Under the pieces are notes generated by a model. It saw nothing but the letters and a program-made list of their open reading frames with translations, had not been told where the DNA came from and ran no database searches. This document shows, in pieces, positions 21,061-34,699 of a stretch of DNA of 64,000 bases (its first letter is position 1; every line of letters starts with the position of its first letter). Made by a program: the position numbers and the translations under genes. The DNA lies in the IMG/VR virus record IMGVR_UViG_3300031784_000026, positions 1 through 64,000 of that record; one strand, given 5' to 3'. This DNA comes from a virus.

Positions 21061-23400
21061 TTACCTACCCATTTTGGTAGCGGCTACACGCTGCATAGCA
21101 GTGTTAGCGCGGAGTTGAGCAATGTCTTCCATCGATTGGATCTTTTCTTTGTCCAATGCAGTCTTCGTCTGAAGCTTCTGGGCATCAAGAGCAATCCGGC
21201 TTTGGTCAGACTGAGCCTTCTGCTGAAGTTCCTGTGCCTTCAATTGCAGGTTCTGCTGCTGCAACTGCACAAGCGGGTCAGGACCTTGCTGAGGCATAAG
21301 CTGCTGCATCAACTGCTGAGTCATCATGGCTTCAATCTTGGCGACCTCGACTTCCATCTCTTGCGGCTGCAACATGACATTGATGCCCTGCTGCTGCATT
21401 TGGATGACAACCTGCTGCTGCGCTGCGAGAGACAGGTGCTCGAGGACGTGGGACATCAGCACGCCATACACTGCCGGTGACATTTGAATCAGCGGCGTGA
21501 GCATGAAAGTGATGTGGGTTTGGATGTGGGCCATGTGGTCCTGTTCCGGGAAAACCTTCAACGGTTGACCACCGGACGGGATTGTCAGGGACTTTGCATT
21601 CTCCAAGGCAGGGCTTTGCGGCATCGGCTGCGGAGGAGGGGGCAACACAAGGTCTACGTCGGTGACGCCCAGTGCCGAATACATCCGGCGATACGCCTCA
21701 TACATATTGTGCATCTGCGGCGCTTGCTGGGCGAGCTGCAATTGCTGTTGAGCCAGCGCAATACGCTGGGTCATCGAGAAGATATTGGGGTCGCTAACCG
21801 GAATAACGTCGATCTTGCCGTCAAAGTCTTGGGCCTTGACCGAAGCATCACCGCCTTGGACCTCGTACGGGTACACAGGCGGTAGATATTCAGCAAAAAT
21901 GTCCGCGAGTAGCTTCAATTCCTGCTTTTGAGCGAAGTGCATCCGTTTGTGGACCGCCGACATGACCCGGGAGCCACGTTCCAACAGGGCGATTGTAGTA
22001 CCGACCGGCAATTCTTGGTTGGACTCGCCCATTCCAAGGTCTGTCGTACCGATAAACTTCTCGGCTGCGCCAATACAGAAGCCTAAAAGCTGGAAAAGTG
22101 TGGCCGACGGCTCTTTATAGGGGAGCGGAAGCAGAGATTGCTGCAAATCGCCACCCGGAGCGTCAACATCTCGCCATTCCCCCGGCTGAATCGGGGTTTG
22201 ATCCTCGATTCTCAGTCCTCTTGCCTTAAATCCCGCAGGTAAATTCGCAAGAGTGCCAGCGTCAACCAACTGCCGAAGAATAGAGGTAGAGCTCCGACTG
22301 AGATTGCCCAAAAGATGAACGAGTCCAAATCCATAGAACCCCATTCCTGACAAGAATTTGTATTGAACAAAGAACTGCCTCTTCTTTTTGAGCGGATCAT
22401 CCTCACGCCAGTTGCGGCGGATGGACAAAATCTTACGGGAACCGGTGTCATAGGTCACAATGTAGGGGATTTGGAGACCTGTGACCTCTCCTTCCTCATC
22501 TTTGTCCTCGAAACCTTCGATATCGAGGTAACAATGACACTCGTGAAGCGTATATGAGTTAGGGTCATCTGGTTTTTCGATGCCCGTCGTCCGATCTACG
22601 CGCTCTTGAATCTCATCTTTGTCCCCTGCCGATGGCTTACCGAGGTCGATGTCGCGGTAAAAGCCGTTTACTTGCAGGCGCTTAAGTTCATTTGGAGAGT
22701 AGCTAAGCACGTGAGTGACCCGTTCAGCGGTCAAAAGATCACGAGCAGCATACGGAACGATCAAATCCTTGGGCAAAATGTAGGGACTGGTCGCCCGGCC
22801 AAGGTAATCGTCGTAGTAAACCTTCTTGAAAGCCGACCCACCGTACCCGACAAAGTACAACATCTGGTCGAAATCGGGGTCATATTCTTCCATGACCTCC
22901 GTAATCTGATAGTTCATGTAAGTTTTGATGCGATCTGCCTGTGCTTCACGCTCCGGTGTCACCTTTCCGATGATCTGTGTGCGTACCGGACCACCTGCTG
23001 GCAGCAATTCCTTGTAGGCCTGAGCCTGAAACTGGGTCACAGCCTCGTTGAGGATGGGGTGCGTAACACCCGTCGAACCCTCAAACGGCTCTGTGCGGTC
23101 TTCATAGTTGAGACCGAGCAAGACCATGCCCTGCTCGTAGATCTTTTTCCACTCGTCGCGGCTTCGATCATCTTCCGTGATCAGCTCGTCAAGGTCATCG
23201 ACGATTTTAAGTAGAAGGCGTTCATCCAAAACTTCGGCGAGGTTTGCGCCGAACGGGATGTCCATCTCGGCAACGTCCACGCTCTCTTGTTCTTCGACCT
23301 CTGCCTCATCCATCTCGGAGGAATCGTTCTGGTCCTTGAGGAGGTCTTCGATGTCTGAGTCGTCAGACTTTTCAATATTGTTGAACGGGGAAATAGCCAT
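21061..23400 (-). CDS. Portal protein
   Basis: A 779-residue protein; ATG 23400 shares a base with the terminase stop. The N-terminus is acidic. Residues 75-115 carry RSRDEWKKIYEQGMVLLGLNYEDRTEPFEGSTGV, then QAYKELLPAGGPVRT, a long middle with FLSGMGFYGFGLVHLLGNLSRSSTSIL, and a very Gln/Met-rich helical C-terminus (MMTQQLMQQLMPQQGPDP) like a portal barrel. Size and order after terminase match the P22/SU10-like portals of short-tailed phages. Twelve copies would form the DNA gate. Confidence 0.8.
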   Translation of the reverse strand: MAISPFNNIEKSDDSDIEDLLKDQNDSSEMDEAEVEEQESVDVAEMDIPFGANLAEVLDERLLLKIVDDLDELITEDDRSRDEWKKIYEQGMVLLGLNYEDRTEPFEGSTGVTHPILNEAVTQFQAQAYKELLPAGGPVRTQIIGKVTPEREAQADRIKTYMNYQITEVMEEYDPDFDQMLYFVGYGGSAFKKVYYDDYLGRATSPYILPKDLIVPYAARDLLTAERVTHVLSYSPNELKRLQVNGFYRDIDLGKPSAGDKDEIQERVDRTTGIEKPDDPNSYTLHECHCYLDIEGFEDKDEEGEVTGLQIPYIVTYDTGSRKILSIRRNWREDDPLKKKRQFFVQYKFLSGMGFYGFGLVHLLGNLSRSSTSILRQLVDAGTLANLPAGFKARGLRIEDQTPIQPGEWRDVDAPGGDLQQSLLPLPYKEPSATLFQLLGFCIGAAEKFIGTTDLGMGESNQELPVGTTIALLERGSRVMSAVHKRMHFAQKQELKLLADIFAEYLPPVYPYEVQGGDASVKAQDFDGKIDVIPVSDPNIFSMTQRIALAQQQLQLAQQAPQMHNMYEAYRRMYSALGVTDVDLVLPPPPQPMPQSPALENAKSLTIPSGGQPLKVFPEQDHMAHIQTHITFMLTPLIQMSPAVYGVLMSHVLEHLSLAAQQQVVIQMQQQGINVMLQPQEMEVEVAKIEAMMTQQLMQQLMPQQGPDPLVQLQQQNLQLKAQELQQKAQSDQSRIALDAQKLQTKTALDKEKIQSMEDIAQLRANTAMQRVAATKMGR

Positions 23401-24863
23401 CAATAATAAATCCTTCTGCCGACCTTCGTCTCACCTTCTATCACAAGATCTTCCGGATGCGACAGGAATCCTCCCTGCCGAAACCGCATCAACGCTTGTG
23501 TGGCGGCGTCACAGTGGTCGTCATGTTCTCCAAATGGAAATGCGGCCATCTCTTCGATGACCTCTTCGGCCCAGCTCGTTTCAGGATACCACACCAAACC
23601 TGCCTCGAATAGGGGGGCCACGGAGTTCATTCTGACGTGTTTATCATTTCCCCGGCTTGGAGAAAAGTTCACGACCGGGATGCCCGTTGCCCGGAGTTCC
23701 TGTGTCAAAGGATGACCGGCAGCCTTCGCTTCGATCAAGACCGTTTCCGGATCCCAGTACTTATACTCGTCGTGGGCAATCTTCTTCAGTTCCGGAAACT
23801 CCCACCGACCCTTCTTGGCATCAAGGAGGATCACGTTCGGCGGTCCACCTTCCGAAGGATAGAAGACGCCCCATGTCTGGATCGCGCTAAAGTCAGCCGT
23901 CCGGGTTTTAAGGAACGCCGTGTCGTAGCTTTGCATTACATACTGCAAAGGCGGGATGCTTCCCTTCTTCCAAGGTTTCCACCAGTCGCGCTTGATGATC
24001 GCCGCCGTATCCGAGGTCGGCGTCTGCATATACTGCGCGTTCCACTGGGTGAGCGGAATCGAAGCTTTGACGCGCTCCAACTCCTCGATCTTCCAGTATT
24101 GCGGCCACAAAGGTTTGCCGCTCGGAAGAATCGCCGGAAACTCAATGACTTCCCACTGATCAGCCTTCGGGTCATTCGCCGACTGACGCAGCAAGCGAGC
24201 CGTCAGGTCGTTCTCACCCCACCGGGTCATGACTAGGATAATAGTACCGCCCGGCTGTAACCGTTGTCTCGGACCCGAACTATACCACTCCCACGCGTTT
24301 TCCAGCGCAGTCGGTGACATTGCATCTTGTTCTGAATGAGGATCATCAACGATAAATAAGTCTGCGCCACGTCCTGCGATGGATCCCCCCACACCGGCTG
24401 CGTAATATTCTCCACCATCATCTGTCTCCCACCGGTATGCAGCCTTACTGTCAGACCTGAGCTTTGTTTGAAAGATCTTCTTATACTCCTCAGACTCCAT
24501 CAGGTTCTTAACCTTGCGACCAAACCTCACAGACAAATCTGCTGTATGCGTCGCCTGCATAATCTTCAAATGCGGATTCCTACCAATCATCCACGCCGGA
24601 AACAGATAGCTCGCAAACTCGGATTTCGTATGACGCGGAGGGAGATTAATGATTACCCGCTTCAGCTCGCCGCGAGCGATAGCCTCAAACTTCTCCGCAA
24701 TATCTCGATGATGCTTGCCAGCAATGAAGCTCGGCCACACGAGTTTCACAAACTCCAGAAACTCTTTGCGAGCCAAAGCTGTTGTATCAATGACCCCGAG
24801 ACGTTCGCCTAACTGATAGGCCCGAACCATAATCTCTTGAGGTAATTTCTCTTCATCGGTCAT
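23400..24863 (-). CDS. terL: Terminase large subunit
   Basis: A 487-residue packaging motor. Features are HHRDIAEKFEAIARGELKRVIINLPPRHTKSEFAS (Walker A-like PPRHTKS), LKIMQATHTADLSVRFGRKV, Walker B-like ADLFIVDDPHSEQDA, and a C-terminal nuclease domain beginning MQSYDTAFLKTRTADFSAIQ with acidic YDTAF. It pumps DNA into the procapsid and cuts the concatemer. The small subunit is separate, at 29933-30526. A leftward promoter candidate lies just upstream. Confidence 0.9.
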   Translation of the reverse strand: MTDEEKLPQEIMVRAYQLGERLGVIDTTALARKEFLEFVKLVWPSFIAGKHHRDIAEKFEAIARGELKRVIINLPPRHTKSEFASYLFPAWMIGRNPHLKIMQATHTADLSVRFGRKVKNLMESEEYKKIFQTKLRSDSKAAYRWETDDGGEYYAAGVGGSIAGRGADLFIVDDPHSEQDAMSPTALENAWEWYSSGPRQRLQPGGTIILVMTRWGENDLTARLLRQSANDPKADQWEVIEFPAILPSGKPLWPQYWKIEELERVKASIPLTQWNAQYMQTPTSDTAAIIKRDWWKPWKKGSIPPLQYVMQSYDTAFLKTRTADFSAIQTWGVFYPSEGGPPNVILLDAKKGRWEFPELKKIAHDEYKYWDPETVLIEAKAAGHPLTQELRATGIPVVNFSPSRGNDKHVRMNSVAPLFEAGLVWYPETSWAEEVIEEMAAFPFGEHDDHCDAATQALMRFRQGGFLSHPEDLVIEGETKVGRRIYY

Positions 24864-24930: not shown

Positions 24931-25413
24931 ATGGGCGATCAACCCCTAGACCTATATGACATCGCGTGGTTCTTCTCAAAAGTAGACGTTAAAGACAAAC
25001 GAGACTGCTGGGAGTTCAGAGGACACAAGGCCGTTGGCGGATATGGGAGCGTAACGATCCGAGGCCAACATTACTACACCCACCGATTATCATACGAGAT
25101 ATTCTGCGGGGAGATCCCCAAAGATCTGGTCATCCGGCACATGTGCGATAACGCCGCGTGCTGTAACCCCTGCCATCTGACCACTGGCACTCAAAGAGAT
25201 AACGTCGTCGACCGGATGATCCGTGGCCGCTCTGCCGTCGGATCCCGGAACGGGCGATCCAAGCTTACAGAAGACGAGGTCCGGCAAATCCTCGATGACC
25301 CGAGATCAGCCCCGGCAACTGCAAAGGCATATGGTGTAGGCAAGGATACCATCCTCCGTATACGCAGAGGGCAGTCTTGGGCGCACGTTACTTCGGACGA
25401 CGTCGCAAAATAG
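24931..25413 (+). CDS. HNH homing endonuclease-like protein
   Basis: A 160-residue protein with ribosome site AAAGGAT just before ATG. Residues 48-90 hold the HNH_3-type core: YYTHRLSYEIFCGEIP, then RHMCDNAACCNPCHLTTGTQRDN (His51, His70, Cys72, Cys77, Asn79, His82). Residues 109-150 (SKLTEDEVRQIL...YGVGKDTILRIRRGQSW) form a helix-turn-helix DNA-binding tail. Free-standing HNH enzymes of this type are mobile in phages. It is rightward, opposite to terL and to the gene at 25388-25654, whose end it overlaps by 26 bases. Confidence 0.85.
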   Translation: MGDQPLDLYDIAWFFSKVDVKDKRDCWEFRGHKAVGGYGSVTIRGQHYYTHRLSYEIFCGEIPKDLVIRHMCDNAACCNPCHLTTGTQRDNVVDRMIRGRSAVGSRNGRSKLTEDEVRQILDDPRSAPATAKAYGVGKDTILRIRRGQSWAHVTSDDVAK

Positions 25414-27454: not shown

Positions 27455-27509
27455 CTTTGTCCTTAATCAATCAATGTCCTATTAGGACTTTACCGGCGCG
27501 AGGCGAATT

Positions 27510-27683
27510 ATGATTACTAAAGCACAACAACAGGCGATACTGAGGGTTTACTTGCGAGATACCACAGAAGCGCAGTCTTATTTGCAATTCCGTCGCAGGA
27601 TAGTGCGAGGGTTTGATTGTCTTATGCTCCCTTGGAAAGGCATGTGGCTTGGGATCGAACTTGACGGTTACACCCACAGTTAA
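27510..27683 (+). CDS. Conserved small phage protein, PWKGMWLGIE type
   Basis: A 57-residue protein, MITKAQQQAILRVYLRDTTE, then AQSYLQFRRR, a FDCLMLPWKGMWLGIE block and DGYTHS. This sequence pattern is widely conserved in phages of Gram-negative bacteria, with no known function. The ribosome site GAGGCG abuts the first ACTTTACCGGCG repeat, and the TAA stop is one base from the second. It has no promoter of its own that I can see. Confidence 0.8.
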   Translation: MITKAQQQAILRVYLRDTTEAQSYLQFRRRIVRGFDCLMLPWKGMWLGIELDGYTHS

Positions 27684-27711
27684 GACTTTACCGGCGCATT
27701 GAGACTTTACC

Positions 27712-27732
27712 GGCGTGACTTCTCCACACGCC
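27712..27732 (+). repeat. Hairpin with TTCTCCACA loop, copy 1
   Basis: GGCGTG pairs with CACGCC around a loop that includes TTCTCCACA (27720-27728). The 5' arm is the end of the repeat at 27704. The same loop sequence appears in the hairpins at 28090 and 28325. Confidence 0.65.
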
Positions 27733-27735
27733 CCT

Positions 27736-27770
27736 GCCCCTCGCAAATTTATTTTTGCGGGGGGCTTTTT
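27736..27770 (+). terminator. Intrinsic terminator
   Basis: GCCCC-T-CGCAAA pairs with TTTGCG-G-GGGGC and is followed by TTTTT. It lies directly before promoter P3. Confidence 0.85.
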
Positions 27771-27775
27771 ATTTG

Positions 27776-27804
27776 TTGACTTTTATTTGACTTGCTCCTA
27801 TATT
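27776..27804 (+). promoter_or_regulatory. Rightward sigma70 promoter P3
   Basis: TTGACT (27776-27781), 17-base spacer, TATATT (27799-27804). A second TTGACT begins 11 bases downstream of the first. The upstream 27 bases, starting TTTTATTTGTTGACTTTTAT, recur at promoter P4. Confidence 0.75.
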
Positions 27805-27836
27805 GATCTGGTAACGCAAACAAAGGGAGAAAGCCT

Positions 27837-28070
27837 ATGCGTTCTATTTCCACTATCGCTCGTGAAATCCGCGCAGACTGGACTAAGCCTTACTTTGGCG
27901 CAGTCCCTTACTTAAGCGCAATGCAGTCCCTCGATAGCATTGAGGATAACTATTATGAGGATAGCGGCAAATCCGTTGTGCTCTACTTTCTCGCGAACGC
28001 GCAGACTTGGAAAGGCGAGAAAGCCCGTTCGATAAAGGCTGAGCTAAAGAAGCTCTGCGGTATCAAATAA
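27837..28070 (+). CDS. Conserved small phage protein, IAREIRADW type
   Basis: A 77-residue protein, MRSISTIAREIRADWTKPYF, then GAVPYLSAMQSL, a YYEDSGKSVVLYFLANAQTW block and KAELKKLCGIK. I recognise the pattern from many phages. It is helical with a conserved Trp-Arg-Gly/Lys-Gly turn, and no activity is known. GGGAGAAAG precedes the ATG. It forms a monocistronic cassette between P3 and the terminator at 28090. Confidence 0.8.
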   Translation: MRSISTIAREIRADWTKPYFGAVPYLSAMQSLDSIEDNYYEDSGKSVVLYFLANAQTWKGEKARSIKAELKKLCGIK

Positions 28071-28089
28071 GATTAGCACTTTACCGGCG

Positions 28090-28121
28090 CGGGCCCGCTT
28101 CTCCACAGGCGGGCCCGTTTT
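28090..28121 (+). terminator. Intrinsic terminator with TTCTCCACA loop, copy 2
   Basis: CGGGCCCGC pairs with GCGGGCCCG around TTCTCCACAG, followed by TTTT. The 5' arm continues the repeat at 28078. It is almost identical to the terminator at 28325. Confidence 0.85.
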
Positions 28122-28142
28122 CTTATGACAAGGAGAAAGTAT

Positions 28143-28292
28143 ATGGACATTGCCGAAGCCCTAGAGATTGTAATTAATCTTGCCCGTCAAAACATACCGT
28201 CAGATCCCGAACTAGAGGAGCTTGCCGCTCGTTACGCCGAAGCCTGCAACGTGGTCGAGGATATGGCAGTCAATCAATTCAGCGAAGATTAG
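28143..28292 (+). CDS. Small acidic phage protein
   Basis: A 49-residue protein, MDIAEALEIVINLARQNIPS, then DPELEELAARYAEACNVVED and MAVNQFSED. A strong site AGGAGAAAG precedes the ATG. The combination LARQNI--DPEL...VVEDM-VN-F is a recurrent tiny phage family of unknown function. The stop codon is one base from the repeat at 28294. Confidence 0.75.
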   Translation: MDIAEALEIVINLARQNIPSDPELEELAARYAEACNVVEDMAVNQFSED

Positions 28293-28324
28293 AACTTTAC
28301 CGGCGCAGTCGGACTTTACCGGCG

Positions 28325-28357
28325 CGGGCCCGCTTCTCCACAGGCGGGCCCGTTTTT
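28325..28357 (+). terminator. Intrinsic terminator with TTCTCCACA loop, copy 3
   Basis: CGGGCCCGC / GCGGGCCCG stem with the same loop as copy 2, followed by TTTTT. It starts inside the repeat at 28313 and is followed by promoter P4. Confidence 0.85.
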
Positions 28358-28362
28358 ATTTG

Positions 28363-28390
28363 TTGACTTTTATTTGACTTCTGTTATTCT
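28363..28390 (+). promoter_or_regulatory. Rightward sigma70-like promoter P4
   Basis: TTGACT (28363-28368), 16-base spacer, TATTCT (28385-28390), with a second TTGACT 11 bases after the first. It is a near copy of P3. Confidence 0.65.
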
Positions 28391-28421
28391 TGGCGGGTCA
28401 ATTCCACAGAAAGGGGATATC

Positions 28422-29069
28422 ATGACAACTCTCAAAGAAGCGCAAAGCGCAGGCAAGATATCAATAGGTAATACAAAAATGCCGGGCTCTACCTTCGCAG
28501 TCTCGGCAAAGCACTGCAACGTAGGCGGCAAGCTTGCCGATCTAGAGGGGTCGGTTTGTTATGAATGTTATGCCCTAAGGCTTCAAAATTTCCGGCCTAC
28601 CGTCAACGCCGGATGGACGGGCAACCTAGACAAGGCAAACCGCATGATCAAAACCGATCCGGCGCGATGGGTCGCCTACATCACCTTCCAAATCAATAAA
28701 GCTTACGAGAAAACCGGCGAACCATATCACCGTTGGTTTGACAGTGGAGACTTGCAATCTGTCGAGATGCTAGAGGCGATATGCGAGGTCGCACGGGCTA
28801 CGCCCCAGATCCGCCATTGGCTCCCGACGCGTGAGACAAAAATCATTAATGACTTTACCGGCTCGATCCCAGACAACCTAATCGTGCGGGTCTCGAGCCC
28901 GATGATCGACGACAAGCCAATCAATAAATACATATGGACTAGCACGGTCCACAAGAACAGTGAACCGGTCGGACATATTTGTCCGGCCCGTCATCAAGGA
29001 AACGCGTGCGGCTCTTGCCGTGCCTGTTGGTCAGATGACATCCGAAACATCTCCTACCCCCTCCACTAG
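28422..29069 (+). CDS. Gene product 88-like protein (GP88 family)
   Basis: A 215-residue protein starting MTTLKEAQSAGKISIGNTKM after GGGGAT. Cysteine-rich segments include SAKHCNVGG, GSVCYECYALRLQNF, and a C-terminal CPARHQGNACGSCRACW cluster. Between lie WVAYITFQIN, YHRWFDSGDLQS and HWLPTRETKI. This is the layout of the phage GP88 family, first named in mycobacteriophages; the cysteines suggest a metal or Fe-S site. Its biochemical role is unknown to me. It is driven by promoter P4. Confidence 0.75.
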   Translation: MTTLKEAQSAGKISIGNTKMPGSTFAVSAKHCNVGGKLADLEGSVCYECYALRLQNFRPTVNAGWTGNLDKANRMIKTDPARWVAYITFQINKAYEKTGEPYHRWFDSGDLQSVEMLEAICEVARATPQIRHWLPTRETKIINDFTGSIPDNLIVRVSSPMIDDKPINKYIWTSTVHKNSEPVGHICPARHQGNACGSCRACWSDDIRNISYPLH

Positions 29070-29075
29070 GGGGTA
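29055..29075 (+). terminator. Hairpin at the end of the GP88-like gene
   Basis: TACCCCC pairs with GGGGGTA across seven bases that contain the stop codon. The following CTCTTCTTTGCTT is only moderately T-rich, so it is a weak terminator or a 3'-end stabiliser. Confidence 0.55.
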
Positions 29076-29113
29076 GCTCTTCTTTGCTTATTGATACTTT
29101 ACCGGCGTGCGTG

Positions 29114-29521
29114 CTACTTTACCGGCGCGACGTGGATGCCTCCCTTTTGTCCGTCGCCAACTGCCCACGGTTGAGCGCATGCGCTCCCGTGGGTCTTTTT
29201 CCAGAATGTTTCCCGTGAAAAGTTATGACAAGATAAATGACATGACCGGCACAGCCAGAGAACATCTGTCGGTCTACCATAATCCTCATGGTGCATCTCG
29301 GCGTCTGTACCGGCGCACACGAAACAATACTGGGCGTCAAGCTTTCCGCGTCTCTTGTAGACGTTGGCATGAGATCGAGCCTTCACCTTTTTCTTTTGCT
29401 CGTCTGAGAGATCCCCGTAAGGGGTTCGATGCTCGCGCATATATGCGGCATGGCAGGCCTTACAGTATCTCTGCCCGTGCCGGTCGTTTTCATTCCCGCA
29501 TTTTGAGCATGTCGTTTTCAT
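29114..29521 (-). CDS. HNH-like zinc-finger protein
   Basis: A 135-residue protein starting MKTTCSKCGNENDRHGQRYC at 29521, with GGAG upstream. Two zinc knuckles come first (CSKC, CKAC), then a basic linker, then CFVCAGTDAEMHHEDYGRPTDVLWLCRSCHLSCHN. HHEDYxxPxDVxWLCRxCH is the core of a very common phage HNH-like family. A nicking or DNA-binding function is likely but untested. Its last codons (APVK and stop) are encoded by the repeat at 29116. Confidence 0.75.
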   Translation of the reverse strand: MKTTCSKCGNENDRHGQRYCKACHAAYMREHRTPYGDLSDEQKKKVKARSHANVYKRRGKLDAQYCFVCAGTDAEMHHEDYGRPTDVLWLCRSCHLSCHNFSRETFWKKTHGSACAQPWAVGDGQKGGIHVAPVK

Positions 29522-29592
29522 GGGTCGCTCCGTGGAACATGTGGAACATTTTCCTAACACGCATTTGTTCCACGGTAAAGTGTTTTAAGACT

Positions 29593-30006
29593 TTACCGGC
29601 GCAGGGCAATGAGCCGTGATTCAAGGAAATCGAGCAAGGTCTGCCACTTTACCGGCGCGGATAACACTAAATCTGGGGTAATTTCAGGGTTTTCCACTAG
29701 ATCTAGTAGCTTTGAGCATGAAAAAATTTCTACAACCTCTGCCCGTGGACGGCTGACCAAGTTGAACACGTTAGGAAAAAATGCCGCTCTCCTTGTTTGC
29801 CAAGCAATTTGGGCGGGACGCCACAAAGAGACCGGTTGGATCGCCTTGCGAGATTCTACCTTGTTTTCGAGCCAAAATTCGCCGAAAGGGGCGGCTCCGT
29901 TGACGTCTGGTATTCCGACGCCTGCCCACGCCTCAACCCTTGTCCAATGGATCGTCTCCGTCGCTTTCTTCAAGGACTGATACATCTTCTTCTCGGTTTG
30001 GAACAA
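29593..30006 (-). CDS. PD-(D/E)XK (VRR-NUC/resolvase-like) nuclease
   Basis: A 137-residue protein with GIPDVNGAAPFGEFWLENKV: Asp34, Glu47 and Lys49 give the D-x12-E-x-K core. WRPAQIAWQTRRAAFF follows, matching the Q-x-W helix of VRR-NUC/Holliday-junction nucleases. It probably resolves branched DNA before packaging. The start overlaps terS by 74 bases; a later Met at 29985 is possible. The repeat at 29590 contains its stop, and the repeat at 29646 lies within its coding frame. Confidence 0.7.
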   Translation of the reverse strand: MFQTEKKMYQSLKKATETIHWTRVEAWAGVGIPDVNGAAPFGEFWLENKVESRKAIQPVSLWRPAQIAWQTRRAAFFPNVFNLVSRPRAEVVEIFSCSKLLDLVENPEITPDLVLSAPVKWQTLLDFLESRLIALRR

Positions 30007-30526
30007 GGTCGATCTCCTTCGGGGGAAGCATCGCCTGCTTCAATGCAGGGTATTGCTCATGCAGTTTCTGAAGCTCGGCGAGCACCTCTTCACGGGACAT
30101 CTGGTCGATCTTGCCCACAAGGATTTCAGAGCGGCTGATGTAGAGGCCTGCCGCCATGCCGCGTTGCTTCTCTGCCGCGACAGCAGGGCCAAGGGCCTTC
30201 TGTTCAATGGCGAGATCACGGATGCGAGCCAGTTGGGTGATGTGGCTCTCGTAGGTAACCTCATGCTGTTTGGCGAGGCTTTTCTCAAGCTCACGGATCC
30301 GGTCGATGACTTTGGGAAAGTCGCGACCGTTCATAAAACGAGAGGCCACGACAGCGGCGTCTTGATAGCCCGCCTTCTCTGCGGCTTCTGTCTGAGTCAT
30401 GAAGCCGAAGACGAAGTTGCGGCAAAAGTCCTCCTGCATCTGGGTCAGGCCCGACTCAAGCTTCGTCAGCTTAGTCTTGGGAGGGGCGACAGCCTTCACA
30501 TAGTGGGTCTGCTTGCGATCCTTCAC
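29933..30526 (-). CDS. terS: Terminase small subunit
   Basis: A 197-residue protein with a GTG start. Residues 25-70 (LTQMQEDFCRNFVFGFMTQTEAAEKAGYQDAAVVASRFMNG) form the Terminase_2-type helix-turn-helix for recognising the packaging site. Residues 75-130 are a helical oligomerisation region (VIDRIRELEKSLAKQHEVTYE), and the C-terminus is acidic. It selects phage DNA and stimulates terL, which lies 5 kb away behind unrelated genes. It ends inside the downstream nuclease gene. Confidence 0.85.
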   Translation of the reverse strand: MKDRKQTHYVKAVAPPKTKLTKLESGLTQMQEDFCRNFVFGFMTQTEAAEKAGYQDAAVVASRFMNGRDFPKVIDRIRELEKSLAKQHEVTYESHITQLARIRDLAIEQKALGPAVAAEKQRGMAAGLYISRSEILVGKIDQMSREEVLAELQKLHEQYPALKQAMLPPKEIDLVPNREEDVSVLEESDGDDPLDKG

Positions 30527-31028
30527 GATGTTCTCTTTCTGTTCTGAATTTCCCAGTAAGGCATTCTAGCCAAAGAAAAATTTTATTTCCACAGAGAAAA
30601 ATCCTGTCCACATGCGCGGGGGGAACTTATTTGGTCTATCACATTTTATGATAGCTTCCTGTAAAAAAGATAGCATATTCTCTTGTATTATCAATGGGTT
30701 ATCAATTCTATCATTTCTATCATGCCGAATCCACCTTTTGTGTGTCCAAAAATTTTTTAACGCCGCGCGCGCGCAGATTCAGTTTGGAAAAACACACTTT
30801 TTTAAAATCGACGATATTTATGATAGAAGTGATAAGGTATTTGAAATCATTCATCTTTTCCCTATCAAAGTTAACAACAAATTAGATAGACCTCACTTCC
30901 CTTATAGGCAGTTTGTCAAAGGACAGAGGACCTCTAACCACCCACCACTAACCACCCCCGCCAACAATTCCCCTCGATTTATTGGCGGCCCCCAGTTACA
31001 ATCTGACCACTGCAATAGGAGGCCTGCC
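30527..31028. other. AT-rich non-coding region with TATCA/TGATA iterons (candidate origin)
   Basis: A 500-base gap without a credible gene. Between 30636 and 30890 at least nine YTATCA or TGATAR hexamers occur. The tandem run TTATCA, TTATCA, CTATCA, CTATCA starts at 30688, 30699, 30708 and 30717, and TGATAG/TGATAA at 30821/30830 has the same nine-base step. CTATCA (30636) and TGATAG (30649) form an inverted repeat. Two DnaA-box-like sites, ATTTCCACA and CTGTCCACA, lie near 30590-30612. The features fit a melting or initiation region. Confidence 0.6.
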
Positions 31029-33796: not shown

Positions 33797-34178
33797 AGAA
33801 GAATTGGAACGGCTTGTTCGAGCGTATGAGGAAGAACTGGATTATTACCGTAGCTTGTTTTCGGTGGATCAATTCAGCTCTCGCCTCAAGGATTACTTCA
33901 ATCTCACCGATCAGTTGGCGGCGGCGTTGAAGCTTTTCTTGGACTCAGGCCGCGTGTCGAACGAGGCTTTGACAAAGACCGCAGAACTCTTTGGCAAGAA
34001 GGCAGAGCACGATGCAGACTACTCAAAGATTGTTGTCTGGCGCTTGCGTAAGGCTCTCGAAGACTACGGCTTTGTGATCGAGAACAGTTATGGTTGGGGC
34101 TACCGCATGGATCCCGATCAAGTGAAAGAGCTGAAGGATATCGTGAACAACAAGAAGAAAGGGAAGAAGTCTAAATGA
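33789..34178 (+). CDS. Winged-helix DNA-binding protein (OmpR C-domain-like)
   Basis: A 129-residue protein starting MTKEELERLVRAYEEELDYY at 33789. Residues 40-107 resemble the DNA-binding domain of OmpR/PhoB-type regulators: LTDQLAAALKLFLDSGRVSNEAL, DYSKIVVWRLRKALEDYGFV and ENSYGWGYRM, the last matching the conserved wing G-GY. There is no receiver domain; the N-terminus is a short coil instead. It is a candidate phage transcription regulator. The basic tail may add DNA affinity. Confidence 0.7.
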   Translation: MTKEELERLVRAYEEELDYYRSLFSVDQFSSRLKDYFNLTDQLAAALKLFLDSGRVSNEALTKTAELFGKKAEHDADYSKIVVWRLRKALEDYGFVIENSYGWGYRMDPDQVKELKDIVNNKKKGKKSK

Positions 34179-34699
34179 CCGTATCCTACATTGATAACTA
34201 CAAAACGATCCGCAACAAGTTTCGCCCGCCGGTGAGGCCTGTCGTGATTCAAAGGACAGAGGTCAAAGAACAACCCGCACCTGTCGTTGTACTTGAGCCA
34301 GAGCAGATCGAAGAGCTTCCGGAGATCGAGCGTTGGGCGCGATATGGTTCGGGCGACAAGAACTATCGCGACATGATGAGTGACGCGAGAACACTTCGCA
34401 CCGAAGCAGAGAAGCGTGGCATCAGCTTCTATACCAAACTCATGGAAGGTATGCCGACCGTATCGAACCGCCTGAAGCTTGCGACGGTGGTCGTGCTTGA
34501 GGAATACGCGATTGATTGGAAGACACTGTTTGACAAGGACCGGTCTCGTTTCAAGACAGCGATACGGTGGAAGGTCTTTGACGCATTGCGCGAAGAGGGC
34601 CTGTCGTTTTTAGAAATCGCCAGACTTTGTGATGTGGATCACACGTCGGTGATGCACGGTCTTAAGAGAATTAGGGGAGAGTACAATGTCGGACGTTAA
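34175..34699 (+). CDS. DnaA domain IV-like DNA-binding protein
   Basis: A 174-residue protein. Residues 1-50 are a flexible Pro-rich segment. Residues 128-167 (IRWKVFDALREEGLSFLEIARLCDVDHTSVMHGLKRI) match the DnaA C-terminal helix-turn-helix, including the DHT-V-H signature (Asp155, His156, Thr157). There is no AAA+ domain. It may bind an origin or block host DnaA boxes. Its gene overlaps both neighbours, tying it to the winged-helix gene. Confidence 0.7.
   Translation: MTVSYIDNYKTIRNKFRPPVRPVVIQRTEVKEQPAPVVVLEPEQIEELPEIERWARYGSGDKNYRDMMSDARTLRTEAEKRGISFYTKLMEGMPTVSNRLKLATVVVLEEYAIDWKTLFDKDRSRFKTAIRWKVFDALREEGLSFLEIARLCDVDHTSVMHGLKRIRGEYNVGR

Follow-up and report, generated by a model that had tools for sequence, protein, structure and literature searches.

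The gap between the terminase small- and large-subunit genes (terS and terL) of a freshwater phage holds, among small rightward genes, an array of short direct repeats on one strand. Since many relatives have the same arrangement, with different repeat words and an onset within a nuclease gene, the array is probably a DNA address label in genome packaging or processing. More specifically we propose, with a probability of about 0.45, that it is a polar, multi-copy, pac-like region at which packaging is initiated and which the terminase complex recognizes jointly with an accessory nuclease. It is from location, polarity and co-variation that we infer binding of the word by the nuclease or terminase, and packaging as the event concerned. 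The window is the 64,000-nucleotide stretch analysed here, positions 1 to 64,000 of IMG/VR record IMGVR_UViG_3300031784_000026.

The repeat array and its surroundings

An exact scan for the 12 bp word ACTTTACCGGCG finds ten copies, all on the + strand and all within 27487-29657 (Table 1). No other exact copy occurs in the whole 67,011-base record, the further search that a preliminary description of this DNA had called for, and the reversed control word has no matches. When up to two mismatches are allowed, the window contains 23 matches against 3.9 expected and a maximum of 9 in 100 shuffles. Beyond its exact core the word extends weakly to GCGCCGGTAAAGT-NN-YAAT in the direction of TerL. The preliminary description had counted ten copies in one orientation, with three pairs 19, 19 and 20 bp apart and with copies in spacers, at stop codons and inside the nuclease gene, and all of this is borne out: seven of the ten copies are intergenic, those at 29116 and 29590 are at gene ends and that at 29646 is in the nuclease gene. 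It was also right that the repeat writes the ends of two leftward genes, the 29116 copy encoding the last residues (APVK) and the stop of the HNH gene and the 29590 copy supplying CGC CGG TAA (RR-stop) to the nuclease gene.

Table 1. Features of the terS-terL region of the window
Feature	Coordinates	Strand	Setting
TerL, terminase large subunit	23400..24863	-	downstream of array, on nuclease strand
Repeat copy 1	27487..27498	+	intergenic, 12 bp ahead of 27510 gene
57-aa ORF	27510..27683	+	repeat copies on both flanks; other side of 27837 gene in L014
Repeat pair 27685/27704, 19 bp	27685..27715	+	right behind stop of 27510 gene, ahead of terminator
77-aa protein (phrog_13953)	27837..28070	+	within array; common to lineages with different words
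Single repeat copy	28078..28089	+	opens 44-bp direct duplicate 28078-28121, terminator inside
Small ORF	28143..28292	+	insertion compared with L016, flanked by two repeat copies
Repeat pair 28294/28313, 19 bp	28294..28324	+	28313 copy opens second 44-bp duplicate 28313-28356
GP88-like gene	28422..29069	+	within array, convergent with nuclease
Imperfect eleventh copy, 1 mismatch	28852..28863	+	within GP88-like gene (DFTGSIPDN)
Repeat pair 29096/29116, 20 bp	29096..29127	+	29116 copy forms last residues of HNH gene
HNH endonuclease gene	29114..29560	-	between two array clusters
Repeat copy	29590..29601	+	provides final codons and stop of nuclease gene
PD-(D/E)XK nuclease, 137 aa, Hjc/RecU/VRR-NUC fold (predicted)	29593..30006	-	between TerS and array
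Repeat copy inside nuclease gene	29646..29657	+	codes for APVKW
TerS, terminase small subunit	29933..30526	-	upstream of nuclease

The imperfect copy at 28852 is probably a product of the GP88-like coding sequence. The two 44-bp segments at 28078-28121 and 28313-28356 form a perfect direct duplication of repeat plus terminator on either side of the small ORF at 28143-28292, which is likely to be a recent cassette insertion. Between the nuclease and HNH genes, at 29573-29598, the repeat core recurs imperfectly and inverted (CGGTAAAGT/ACTTTACCG), so that a hairpin could form.

The window's TerS and TerL genes are both leftward, and the small rightward genes in the gap have their own terminators and in some cases promoter-like sequences. 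Two nearly identical promoter-like stretches (TTGACTTTTATTTGACTT), at 27757-27793 and 28344-28380, stand right behind terminators and each precedes a separate rightward gene, so that with these genes they look like moron-type units. Several repeat copies lie between the stop codon and the terminator of rightward genes, as might be expected if the array controlled transcription, be it as late promoters, as roadblocks of the stoperator kind or as terminator-associated RNA elements. The stoperators of Cluster A mycobacteriophages are likewise asymmetric words of constant orientation that change with their reader between lineages; however, they are spread genome-wide and oriented with transcription (PMC6550527), whereas the present array is confined to one locus of 2 kb with its orientation fixed to the nuclease and TerL. 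We consider transcriptional control very unlikely, since the orientation of the copies is independent of gene direction and copies occur within the nuclease and HNH genes, whose transcription runs the other way.

Repeat words in relatives

In every family in which the array was found it lies between terS and terL, and its layout is shared: a single strand, several clusters across approximately 2 kb (about 9-16 copies in all) and an onset inside the 3′ end of the small nuclease gene. The word itself differs by lineage, and at least nine families can be distinguished. The loss of the array in close relatives, named earlier as a ground for refutation, is not seen; ACTTTACCGGCG is kept in L016-L020, L010, L014 and L059, though TerS identity drops to about 55 %, and between the window and L016 all 84 of 84 motif bases are identical compared with 87 % of spacer and 79 % of gene positions. 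L021 has the words ACTTGACCGGCG and ACTTATCCGGCG, and L022 has ACTTTTCCGGCG in addition to both of these. Relatives with other words, located through TerS and nuclease searches (words are given in the nuclease direction), carry AGAATCGCCAGTG (L066-L069), CGCGCGGGCCTTAGATGCAAT (L060, L070 and L072, with a variant in L065), CCGTGGT heptads (L061 and L062), GCCCTGCG (L127-L129), GATGGAT-type octads (L285-L300), TCAAATCGTC octads (L282) or GCTTGnn heptads (pelagiphage HTVC027P and many marine contigs); L073 is a weaker case. Their opposite strands are nearly devoid of the same word (0 to 2 copies). Spacing differs between families, at 17-20 bp in A, 14-16 bp in C, 26-27 bp in B and 7 bp in the marine phages.

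Whole-record checks place the array at one position per genome, the exception being a single stray match in HTVC027P, where the other 16 of 17 genome-wide word matches are at 16.5-17.7 kb. A strict array threshold is passed by only 34 of 65 nuclease-anchored loci, and no clear array was detected in L071, L077, L086 and DSL-LC04, all of which have the nuclease; there is also none in L082, L087 and L099, which have enough flank and no detected nuclease. No close phage isolates were found at the DNA level. A host or bacterial repeat was considered and rejected, as a search of 84,980 species genomes with the paired word hit nothing but unrelated repetitive sequences, and none of these is close to a homologue of terminase, nuclease or GP88.

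The main rival to packaging is cassette or homing-type recombination, in which the nuclease would cut or resolve junctions at the words and small accessory genes would be gained, lost and shuffled. The preliminary description had listed cassette recombination among its options, and it would account for particular differences between relatives: compared with L016, the window has the 28143 ORF inserted precisely between two copies, the indel of the HNH gene at 29114-29560 (of which just 28 aa remain in L057 and L011) has its endpoints at copies, the 27510 ORF is on opposite sides of the 27837 gene in the window and L014, and the 27837 gene crosses word families with up to 79 % identity. Breakpoints at words are not a general rule, with some indels, among them those of the B family (L066/L067), away from words. 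Moreover, the copies remain intact while the spacers vary, and the strict link to terminase and the single strand are left unexplained; we therefore judge such a platform unlikely. No site-specific integrase, of the kind that goes with attC-like cassette sites, was seen among the local genes. A second HNH gene of the gap (24931-25413) is present in L011, L058, L061 and L062 and was not found in L057 or L014.

Nuclease, terminase and word

No Pfam or NCBIfam model names the nuclease, and none in Pfam passes its cut-off. Its AlphaFold (AF2) model has a pLDDT of 92, and Foldseek matches this to Hjc/RecU (E-values 3e-4 to 1e-3) and to the VRR_NUC structure 4qbn (2.6e-3), with a weak match to the homing endonuclease I-Ssp6803I that would suit a homing function; a profile search finds the VRR_NUC-domain nuclease 4qbo (E-value 0.0036). 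Together with the invariant residues E25, P33-D34, E47-x-K49 and Q66, the modelled fold has the features of a predicted Hjc/VRR-NUC nuclease with the PD-(D/E)XK motif, as in the phage VRR-NUC/Hjc/RecU resolvases. In the literature searched we found no published link between a nuclease of this kind and a repeat array beside terminase.

In most word families the array begins within the 3′ end of the nuclease gene, and the protein's tail changes accordingly. The A-word nucleases end in ...CGC CGG TAA (RR-stop), those with AGAATCGCCAGTGTAA in ESPV-stop and those with CGCGGGCCTTAG in RGP-stop, while with heptad words the tail reads, for instance, LEACGLELEA, its TGA stop being drawn from GCTTGA. 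Since the protein end varies with the DNA word, selection most likely acts at the level of DNA. The earlier suggestion of a DNA-level signal is thus strongly supported, the C-terminal codons and stop following the word in several different-word lineages. If this is true, protein C-termini are here dictated by a DNA signal.

The nuclease is also the protein that best predicts whether two phages share a word. In a first set the AUC was 0.98 for the nuclease, 0.65 for TerS, 0.74 for TerL and 0.67 for the 27837 protein; in a larger set, for which only the nuclease core was used and the word-encoded tail left out, the nuclease reached 0.97-0.98, TerL 0.93 and TerS 0.88-0.89, although the core adjoins the array and the co-variation may in part reflect physical linkage. 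L073 and L014 have TerL proteins that are 94 % identical, different words and nuclease cores only 60 % identical; with TerS strongly different as well, this pair is, on sequence comparison, a module exchange beside terL.

The helix-turn-helix (HTH) domain of TerS is not supported as the reader of the word: between the B and C families, which have unrelated words, it is 81-86 % identical, and among A members, which share theirs, identity drops to as little as 53 %. The test is a weak one because in HK97 the channel of TerS takes part in reading the DNA (PMC11331095) and the SF6 TerS HTH binds without sequence preference (PMC4737164). A classical pac bound by TerS alone would agree with the constant proximity of the array to terS and with the SPP1 pac, which also has direct repeats (PMC4737164), but it seems very doubtful when both the HTH and the whole of TerS track the word less well than the nuclease does, and when TerS is inverted in 25 of 67 loci while the orientation of the array stays with the nuclease and TerL.

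This polarity is strict. TerL is downstream of the nuclease and on the same strand in 70/70 distinct loci, and TerS, inverted or not, is upstream of it in 67/67; a terminase gene is near every nuclease-anchored locus with enough flank (65/65). In a DNA scan with the heptad word only, 78 of 79 analysed contigs carry homologues of TerS, the nuclease, GP88 or TerL, the arrays keep to one strand in 77 of the 79, and CAAGC is on the strand opposite to the nuclease in 67/67 cases and to TerL in 21/21. The array is thus located in or beside terminase genes, as is required of a pac site.

Possible roles in packaging and replication

Among the options of the preliminary description packaging is the best supported, because in all the genomes checked the terS-terL interval is the array's only location; TerS as the specific reader is not supported, since HTH similarity is not linked to the word. 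In the mechanism that we envisage, the nuclease, alone or with TerS or TerL, would recognize the word once the DNA is replicated, branched or concatemeric; the constant orientation of the copies would set the side that is loaded, and TerL, downstream on the nuclease strand, would package. Two general considerations count against the packaging reading: a pac or cos region does not usually have ten or more sites spread over 2 kb, and resolvases of Holliday junctions as a rule recognize a DNA structure and not a particular word. Contig ends near arrays were set aside as packaging ends because assembly breaks at repeats.

The array resembles an SPP1-type pac in having short direct repeats beside terS at a proposed packaging start, although in SPP1 three repeat sets span the start of terS (PMC4737164), whereas here the copies are more numerous, extend downstream of the nuclease gene and have lineage-specific words that the TerS HTH does not track. 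A further precedent is phage HK97, in which the HNH nuclease gp74, encoded beside terminase, aids cleavage of cos (PMC11331095, PMC9410871). On the proposed reading the nuclease would be comparable in role to gp74, and the HK97 system also has an asymmetric recognition sequence; gp74, however, is an HNH protein acting with one cos site, whereas the nuclease here has a predicted Hjc/VRR PD-(D/E)XK fold and lies beside a multi-copy array.

It is possible, if on balance unlikely, that the resolvase-fold nuclease and its own oriented words co-evolve as a genome-identity module, the word being replaced in all copies upon a change of nuclease lineage, so that only DNA bearing the phage's own tag is packaged or processed, against rival phages and satellites. 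Should the proposed role of the array be confirmed, it would show a recognition word that is swapped wholesale between lineages along with a nuclease. The open-access literature yielded no earlier description of such an array, of which an earlier account may exist, and the relevant passages of the HTVC023P-type phage paper (PMC9599517) make no mention of such repeats. That type of pelagiphage, which belongs to the family and is described as widespread in the ocean, has no packaging start described in the same passages. The 16.5-17.7 kb segment of HTVC027P, a cultured phage, offers a precise candidate sequence that can be tested.

The direct repeats, with their 14-20 bp plus heptad/octad spacing and pairs about two helical turns apart, also recall an iteron origin bound by a phage initiator, and the array occupies the gap at which the genes change direction and the GC skew switches. 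The skew was discarded as origin evidence since it tracks gene strand, and the spacing varies between families (7-27 bp) without the regularity expected of iterons, with genes interrupting the array. The preliminary description had suggested iteron-type initiation aided by a DnaA-like protein; this 174-aa protein (34175-34699), which has a weak match to the DnaA C-terminal domain (E-value 4.5e-4, below the Pfam cut-off) and homologues in A-family relatives, is not supported as a reader, having no detectable homologue in the complete genome of HTVC027P, which has an array. With its gene, about 4.5 kb away, as the sole initiator candidate examined, no linked initiator was found. The location of the array, moreover, tracks terminase and nuclease and not replication genes, so that we see an origin as quite unlikely. 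Upstream of TerS, at about 30540-30960, the sequence is AT-rich and contains repeats of the TTCTATCAT type together with an inverted partner; this stretch would fit an origin, or may be a regulatory region. An apparently unrelated phage contig (L196:196-645) has CAAGC heptads just upstream of its own terminase-like gene, with GCTTG on the terminase strand; these may reflect chance or convergence.
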